A stretch of DNA of 39,007 bases from Cytophagales bacterium (GTDB lineage Bacteria > Bacteroidota > Bacteroidia > Cytophagales > CCMP332): NCBI GenBank assembly GCA_028279065.1, contig JANQSY010000081.1, positions 1 through 39,007 of the forward strand, given 5' to 3'. The notes beneath the pieces were generated by a model. That model was not told the DNA's origin. It did not search any database and was given only the letters and a program-made list of their open reading frames with translations. The translations under genes and the position numbers were made by a program. Positions 1 through 680 of the stretch are shown here, piece after piece (the first letter of the stretch is position 1; the number at the start of each line of letters is the position of its first letter).

Positions 1-13
1 GACAATAACTTTT

Positions 14-520
14 TTAGCCATTGATATTTGTCAACAAGGACTGCAACTCCTTTCTGGCGTAAAAGATCCTGGTCTTTACCGTACCCAAAGGAATCCCTAG
101 TTTCTCAGCTATCTCGTTGTATTTATAACCATTGTAATGCATCTCAAATGGAATACGGAACTCTGCCTTGATACCACGCACCAGAGAAAGGAGCTCATCG
201 TACTGCATTTTATCCTCCGGTGCTCCATCAAGGGAATCGTCCTTTACAGGAACCATATAGTTCTCATCATCCGATTCCGAATGAAAAGTAAACCTCGATA
301 ATTTTCTGTAATTATTAATGAAGGTATTTTTCATGATGGTGAAGAGCCAGGCCTTCAGGTTTGTATCATGACGAAATTTCTGTCTGTACCTGAATGCTTT
401 CAGCATGGTCTCCTGAACCAGATCAGCAGCCTCATCGGGGTCCTTTGTAAACTTCCTGGTGAATTGCTCAAGGCTTCCGTACATCGATCCGACTCTGGTG
501 TTAAACTCTATTGCGGTCAT
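14..520 (-). CDS. ECF-type RNA polymerase sigma-70 factor
   Basis: 168-residue alternative sigma factor of the extracytoplasmic-function class. Region 2 spans about residues 25-75 (DEAADLVQETMLKAF, then KAWLFTIMKNTFINNYRK) and region 4 about 110-162 (PFEMHYNGYKYNEIAEKLG, then GTVKTRIFYARKEL), the usual two-domain layout at normal family length. No anti-sigma gene is visible beside it. It lies 160 bp downstream of, and in the same direction as, a B12-binding MerR regulator; this gene pair commonly precedes phytoene desaturase/synthase genes in Cytophagales, so control of carotenoid or light-stress genes is inferred. The ATG at 520 is preceded by a candidate -7 element (544-551 on the opposite strand) embedded in repeated TTGTTYAAC sites, so transcription is probably controlled by the MerR protein. 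Family call is secure; the target genes are not visible. Confidence 0.93.
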   Translation of the reverse strand: MTAIEFNTRVGSMYGSLEQFTRKFTKDPDEAADLVQETMLKAFRYRQKFRHDTNLKAWLFTIMKNTFINNYRKLSRFTFHSESDDENYMVPVKDDSLDGAPEDKMQYDELLSLVRGIKAEFRIPFEMHYNGYKYNEIAEKLGIPLGTVKTRIFYARKELQSLLTNING

Positions 521-535
521 AACTTTTGTCTTATG

Positions 536-665
536 TTGTTCAACAAATTTATATAAAGGTTAAACAAAAAGCCAAGAATTTGTTCAACTTTTTTCTTCAT
601 AATGTTAAACAAAGCAATCGAAATCGGCTATAACTACCTGTAAATCAACAAAGTGATTGTTTAAA
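536..665. promoter_or_regulatory. Array of TTGTTYAAC half-sites upstream of the sigma factor gene (putative MerR operator)
   Basis: Half-sites read TTGTTCAAC at 536-544 (+), GTTAAACAA at 559-567 (the minus-strand copy), TTGTTCAAC at 580-588 (+), GTTAAACAA at 604-612 (minus copy), and a weaker TTGTTTAAA at 657-665 (+). They alternate in orientation and form two inverted pairs with 14- and 15-bp spacers, starts being 21-24 bp apart, about two helical turns. The region lies between the MerR gene and the sigma factor gene. Binding by the MerR/CarH-like protein is inference. Confidence 0.6.
544..576 (-). promoter_or_regulatory. Candidate Bacteroidetes promoter for the ECF sigma gene
   Basis: On the minus strand a perfect TAnnTTTG -7 element (TAAATTTG, 544-551) lies 21 bp downstream of CTTG (573-576), a partial -33 element. 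Transcription would start near 538, leaving a leader of about 18 nt before the ATG at 520. The -7 box overlaps one TTGTTCAAC half-site, and a second half-site falls between -7 and -33, so a bound regulator would directly affect polymerase. Confidence 0.45.
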
Positions 666-680
666 GAAAAACAAAAAAAA

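Follow-up and report, generated by a model that had tools for sequence, protein, structure and literature searches.

A candidate CarH-like operator array of alternating inverted repeats at a sigma factor-carotenoid operon of Cytophagales

Two groups of described operators come closest to the site considered here. CarH operators of Thermus thermophilus, Bacillus megaterium and myxobacteria consist of tandem 11-bp direct repeats of the form nnnnTnnACAn, and the recognition helix of known CarH proteins reads RxWERRY (PMC9304148). The class II LitR proteins PplR1 and PmlR2 of Pseudomonas recognize sites of the pattern T(G/A)TACA-N12-TGTA(C/T)A, and in this genus class II LitR depends on a LOV partner for its switching (PMC9758184). 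Among the Bacteroidota, Chryseobacterium lacus produces a light-induced pigment by a light-regulated mechanism that its authors call unknown (PMC7064467). Neither a characterized CarH operator in Bacteroidota nor a report of the present operator was found in the open-access literature searched.

The window, that is, the whole stretch of DNA that was analysed, comprises 39,007 nucleotides from a Cytophagales bacterium. An earlier note, made from its letters alone, had claimed that an array of alternating TTGTTYAAC half-sites overlaps the promoter of an ECF sigma factor gene and may serve a CarH-type MerR protein encoded just upstream.

The array and the genes around it

The window contains four exact TTGTTYAAC half-sites, all within 77 bp (536-612), and they have the positions and orientations given in the earlier note. 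Those at 536-544 and 580-588 lie on the forward strand, and those at 559-567 and 604-612 on the reverse strand. As that note held, they form two inverted pairs with spacers of 14 and 15 bp. The proximal dyad, TTGTTCAAC-N14-GTTAAACAA, spans 536-567 over the sigma factor promoter (arms 536-544 and 559-567, spacer 545-558). The distal dyad, TTGTTCAAC-N15-GTTAAACAA, spans 580-612 (arms 580-588 and 604-612, spacer 589-603) and is offset from the proximal one by 44 bp. Both match the consensus TTGTTYAAC-N14/N15-GTTRAACAA exactly. A fifth, weaker half-site claimed at 657-665 is present as well; it belongs, as the stronger arm, to a degenerate third dyad (657-688), which overlaps the stop codon of the MerR gene and, with four mismatches, is weak evidence.

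In 100 shuffles of the window the mean number of exact half-sites is 0.60 and the maximum three, so that none reaches four. Single half-sites with one mismatch occur in the window at chance level (21 against 19.7), and the evidence therefore lies in the exact, clustered pairs. The 3.59-Mb genome of the same organism holds two exact dyads, both at 536-612, and no match to a reversed-pattern control. The earlier note had named an equal, chance frequency of the motif across the genome as an outcome that would speak against it. Shuffles, genome scan, reversed-pattern control and spacing all put the exact dyad far above chance, and the array is real.

The promoter of the sigma factor gene is interleaved with the proximal dyad. 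Its -7 element, TAAATTTG (551-544, reverse strand), matches TAnnTTTG and lies inside the dyad, and a TTG -33 element (575-573, reverse strand) lies 21 bp upstream of it. These are the features of a Bacteroidota housekeeping promoter, which combines a TAnnTTTG -7 box with a TTG at -33 across a gap of about 19-21 bp. The -7 box shares one base with the arm at 536-544, on the promoter-downstream side, and the arm at 559-567 falls between the -7 and -33 elements. The sequence thus confirms the claim that one half-site overlaps a perfect TAnnTTTG box and another separates the two promoter elements.

The sigma factor gene (14-520, reverse strand) encodes 168 amino acids with Pfam Sigma70_r2 and Sigma70_r4_2 domains. 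Its stop codon is overlapped by the first codons of crtI (MAKKVIV..., 1-21, reverse strand, read from the translation). The window starts at the contig end with a break inside crtI, and contig C167 begins inside the same crtI; next on it comes a second crt ORF, where relatives have crtB. The overlap and this continuation together indicate a sigma-crtI-crtB operon that was split by the assembly. The suggestion that the sigma factor is the output of the system thus stands in that its gene lies in the operon under the array, but the output is the sigma-crtI-crtB operon and not the sigma factor alone. On the other side of the array, a gene on the reverse strand (681-1571) encodes a CarH/LitR-like MerR regulator of 296 amino acids with B12-binding domains, as assigned by Pfam, PDB and fold comparisons. 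A cobalamin adenosyltransferase gene is present in the genome; AdoCbl synthesis by the host is predicted from it, and the host can probably make this cofactor.

When three mismatches are allowed in the genome of this organism, background swamps the signal, and only a one-mismatch site on contig C174 stands out. This site (C174:4092-4123; L074:1501-1532) precedes a DUF4397 gene, and a fasciclin gene is close by. In a same-genus genome (L075) the matching place holds a two-mismatch dyad, and fasciclin-type genes also adjoin dyads at L101, L106 and L108. Sites of this fasciclin/DUF4397 type are possible further targets.

Conservation of the dyads and the genes they precede

Exact dyads are found in 34 of 194 genomes of the order, and the reversed-pattern control finds none. 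When spacers of 0 to 29 bp are scanned (lengths tallied by hand from the list), 26 of 42 dyads have 14 bp, eight have 15 bp, and eight are scattered over the remaining 28 lengths. Among 29 dyad loci from other genomes of the order, 15 are at a sigma factor gene and six more at a CarH-like gene. Two further families of the class Bacteroidia also carry exact dyads. Half-site conservation among relatives, which the earlier note had offered as a check through comparison of the intergenic region, is thus borne out both in the order and in other families.

To avoid circularity, loci were also picked by regulator homology alone. Twelve of the 15 such loci with a linked sigma factor gene carry the dyad (at most two mismatches, no more than 150 bp from the sigma start), for which dinucleotide shuffles give an expectation of 0.01. 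Regulator loci from named genomes, including Algoriphagus, Roseivirga, Marivirga, Fulvivirga and Bacteroidales MAGs, have a sigma factor match in 51 of 80 cases. The dyad is present at 33 of these 51 loci with up to two mismatches and at 42 with up to three, in a set that partly overlaps the 15 loci and in which, as there, related genomes are non-independent samples. Spacers in the named genomes have a single peak at 14 bp, which accounts for 35 of the dyads with up to two mismatches. Most loci that fail at two mismatches keep a core resembling TGTTTAA...TTAAACA, as read by eye. The same layout occurs in type strains of Algoriphagus and Roseivirga.

The nearest relatives retain different parts of the array. 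In the closest genome (G028, same genus), the proximal dyad is exact, the distal dyad, likewise offset by 44 bp, has one mismatch, and the promoter is kept. In the next closest (G009, same family), the proximal dyad (one mismatch) and the far weak dyad are kept but the distal dyad is not. Counterparts of the third dyad lie at -174 from the sigma start in the former (three mismatches) and at -170 in the latter (two mismatches).

In a logo of 48 proximal dyads, TGTTYAA and TTRAACA hardly vary, and their G and C do not vary at all; the sites were picked at up to three mismatches, a rule that adds to the sharpness of the logo. At loci with two dyads, the distance to the second, upstream one is 43-46 bp in 20 of 30 cases, with a peak at 44 bp, and this arrangement is seen in other families too. 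As 44 bp make four units of 11 bp, the offset suggests that binding is cooperative and on the same DNA face. In 28 loci with N14 proximal dyads the TAnnTTTG box begins at dyad offset +15 or +16, and most of the other loci have it at +5 or -5, so that nearly everywhere the -7 box touches or overlaps an arm. Across relatives the gap from TTG to TAnnTTTG peaks at 19-21 bp.

Elsewhere the dyad precedes MerR-crtI operons, crtI, a rhodopsin gene followed by crtY, and photolyase and photolyase-like genes. It also precedes folE with msrA, an SDR gene and pterin genes. At L012, L015-L017, L028 and L029 it stands beside the regulator gene even where no sigma factor gene is present. A variant operon at L034:4056-8903 and at L054 is composed of a CarH-like gene, dyads, and genes for a sigma factor, a FolE-like protein, an SDR protein and a flavin reductase, without crt genes; that at L034 additionally has a photolyase-like gene. 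In another genome of the order, at L006:683-1532, an exact dyad precedes a bacteriorhodopsin-family gene, which is divergent from a gyrB-like gene and has a lycopene-cyclase-like gene after it. If the assignment is true, a rhodopsin there would be under the control of a B12 light sensor. No light link is evident among the adjoining genes at L008 and L019-L022. At three of these loci, from three genomes of one genus (L020-L022), an N15 dyad is flanked on one side by a patatin-like gene and on the other by a 198-aa ORF that matches nothing in Pfam.

The regulator and its predicted mode of action

The claim that a CarH-type MerR protein is encoded just upstream proves right to the extent that domains, key residues and fold are all CarH-like. 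Pfam detects MerR_1 (4.6e-17), B12-binding_2 (5.8e-10) and B12-binding (5.3e-5, below its curated cut-off). The nearest PDB relatives by sequence are Thermus CarH structures (3whp, 5c8d), and a fold search with the predicted structure (pLDDT 88) ranks Thermus CarH 5c8e first. The NCBIfam CarH equivalog NF052513 scores 96.6 bits against a cut-off of 400, and the protein is therefore termed CarH-like and is not assigned to that equivalog. MliR, a MerR-like iron regulator of Bizionia, was considered and set aside, as it has no effector domain.

The Wx9EH motif, which caps the adenosyl group, and the lower axial histidine (W139, E149, H150 and H188) are invariant in 53 homologues. The light signature of the family comprises GxxW, EH, GxxH and GxxxP (PMC11796333). 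Here GxxW, EH and GxxxP are present, and GxxH keeps its histidine with the glycine replaced by Lys185; this glycine is found in 34 of the 53 homologues. The position of Thermus His132 is occupied by Leu140, and all 53 homologues lack the histidine and mostly have glutamine. An equivalent of His132 is present in many CarH proteins and serves as the upper cobalt ligand in the light state, though it is not a universal trait (PMC11796333). The H132A variant of Thermus CarH responds poorly (PMC10442372). CtMerR, with arginine at this position, still passes from tetramer to monomer in light (PMC11796333), so that light sensing is compatible with the missing histidine here. By alignment, the Arg176-Asp201 dimer pair of Thermus CarH is replaced by methionine and isoleucine, and both glycines of the tetramer interface are retained. 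The recognition helix reads RxWE[Q/K]RY, and this change may lie behind the changed sequence of the arms.

The preferred reading, with a probability of roughly 0.78, is that the array at 536-612 acts as the operator of the CarH-like regulator, which would keep the sigma-crt operon repressed in darkness and release it in light. In the dark, the AdoCbl-bound regulator would occupy all four arms. One pair of DNA-binding domains would probably sit on each dyad, giving two dimers in tandem; a single tetramer across both dyads is the alternative. Bound in this way, the regulator would cover the -7 box and the stretch between the -7 and -33 elements, and RNA polymerase with the housekeeping sigma factor would be kept from starting sigma-crtI-crtB. 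Light would then break the Co-C bond, and the complex would fall apart or leave the DNA. The released promoter would allow expression of the carotenoid genes and the ECF sigma factor. For this locus we infer binding by the regulator, repression, tetramer binding, and light and B12 as the signal; the fit of the layout to a CarH tetramer, put forward in the earlier note, holds only with DNA-binding domains that are placed differently.

The regulator might bind the dyads yet respond to a signal other than light, either AdoCbl supply or some other cue such as redox state. Such a signal would suit the lack of His132 in 53 of 53 homologues and the lysine in the GxxH motif of this protein. Precedents are Myxococcus CarA, which binds without B12 (PMC9304148), and the Pseudomonas class II LitR proteins, whose switch is the LOV partner (PMC9758184). 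However, Wx9EH, the axial histidine and GxxxP are kept, and CtMerR responds to light with arginine in place of His132 (PMC11796333). The predicted targets (crt, photolyase and rhodopsin genes) are also photoprotective, and a signal other than light is accordingly judged unlikely.

MerR proteins mostly act as activators from dyads located between promoter elements. The arm at 559-567, located between -7 and -33 as are typical activating MerR dyads, would be in keeping with a regulator that activates this promoter in the classical style. The -7 box is found inside the dyad in three registers (-5, +5 and +15/16), however, which fits occlusion and not a fixed activating geometry, and the described CarH and LitR members are repressors (PMC9304148, PMC9758184). 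Activation is thus quite improbable.

A different regulator could act on the dyads, for example a CRP/FNR-type protein like Thermus LdrP or one encoded by some other conserved gene, with the CarH-like gene a mere neighbour. Dyads do occur at loci with no regulator gene nearby, and many regulator-bearing genomes lack an exact dyad. Nevertheless, the dyad repeatedly adjoins the regulator gene even where no sigma factor gene is present, each arm contains the CarH TnnACA core, and a CarH-like gene is found in 31 of 33 dyad-bearing genomes. The corresponding count is 119 of 157 among other genomes (Fisher p 0.019), an association that is only moderately strong because most genomes have the regulator and many have imperfect dyads. 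The two dyad-bearing genomes without the gene are 81-82% complete. The involvement of a different regulator is very improbable on these grounds. Chance repeats in an AT-rich intergenic region, with which the background level of one-mismatch half-sites in the window would agree, are refuted by the shuffles, whole-genome controls, spacer spectrum and cross-family conservation.

A broader picture with about an even chance of being right can also be drawn. Bacteroidia may possess a separate branch of CarH-like B12 photoreceptors without His132. This branch would have its own code, with TGTTYAA arms in inverted orientation, spacers of 14/15 bp and a repeat of 44 bp, read by a tetramer or by two dimers with alternating DNA-binding domains. 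Its regulon would reach beyond carotenoids to an ECF sigma factor, photolyases and folate genes, and to rhodopsin in some species. A motif this precise and conserved would be a ready predictor of the light regulon in many genomes, in one of which a rhodopsin would be included. It also poses two structural questions: how a CarH protein of the tandem-repeat type reads widely spaced inverted pairs, and how light is answered without the second cobalt-binding histidine. The array would furthermore be a distinct promoter part for green-light optogenetics.

Comparison with known systems

At the protein level, the regulator resembles Thermus CarH (5C8D, 5C8E) in domain order, as top structural match, and in Wx9EH, the axial histidine and the tetramer-interface glycines. 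It differs in having only about one quarter identity, an RxWE[K/Q]RY helix, no His132 and no Arg176-Asp201 pair. It shares with CtMerR, a CarH-like light sensor, the lack of an equivalent of His132, a position at which CtMerR has arginine (PMC11796333).

The array has much in common with class II LitR sites, namely hexamer-like arms at a fixed spacing and two sites per promoter. Class II LitR represses light-inducible genes, among them photolyase, folE and SDR genes, which is the role predicted here, and LitR regulons of Pseudomonas contain the same kinds of genes as those preceded by dyads (PMC9758184). In contrast, the arms here read TGTTYA/TRAACA and not TGTACA, 18 and not 12 bp separate the hexamers, and the Pseudomonas proteins have a LOV partner. 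The hexamers of the first dyad, TGTTCA and TAAACA at 18 bp, accordingly depart from TGTACA-N12-TGTACA.

Like CarH operators, the array adjoins a MerR-B12 gene and overlaps promoter elements of carotenoid genes, with the -7 box (544-551) inside the dyad at 536-567. Every arm contains a TnnACA core, and there are several elements, which in CarH are bound together (PMC9304148). In and around the array, TnnACA cores lie at 540, 561, 606, 645 and 682 on the forward strand and at 537, 581, 603, 639 and 658 on the reverse strand. No cores of the same orientation are 11 bp apart, and a reading of the array as tandem 11-bp CarH repeats was rejected. Whereas CarH operators use such tandem direct repeats, the arms here are 9 bp long (core TTRAACA), alternate at steps of about 22 bp and form inverted pairs with 14/15-bp spacers, the pairs being about 44 bp apart. 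Judged by its sequence, the array is a new predicted operator layout within the CarH/LitR kind.
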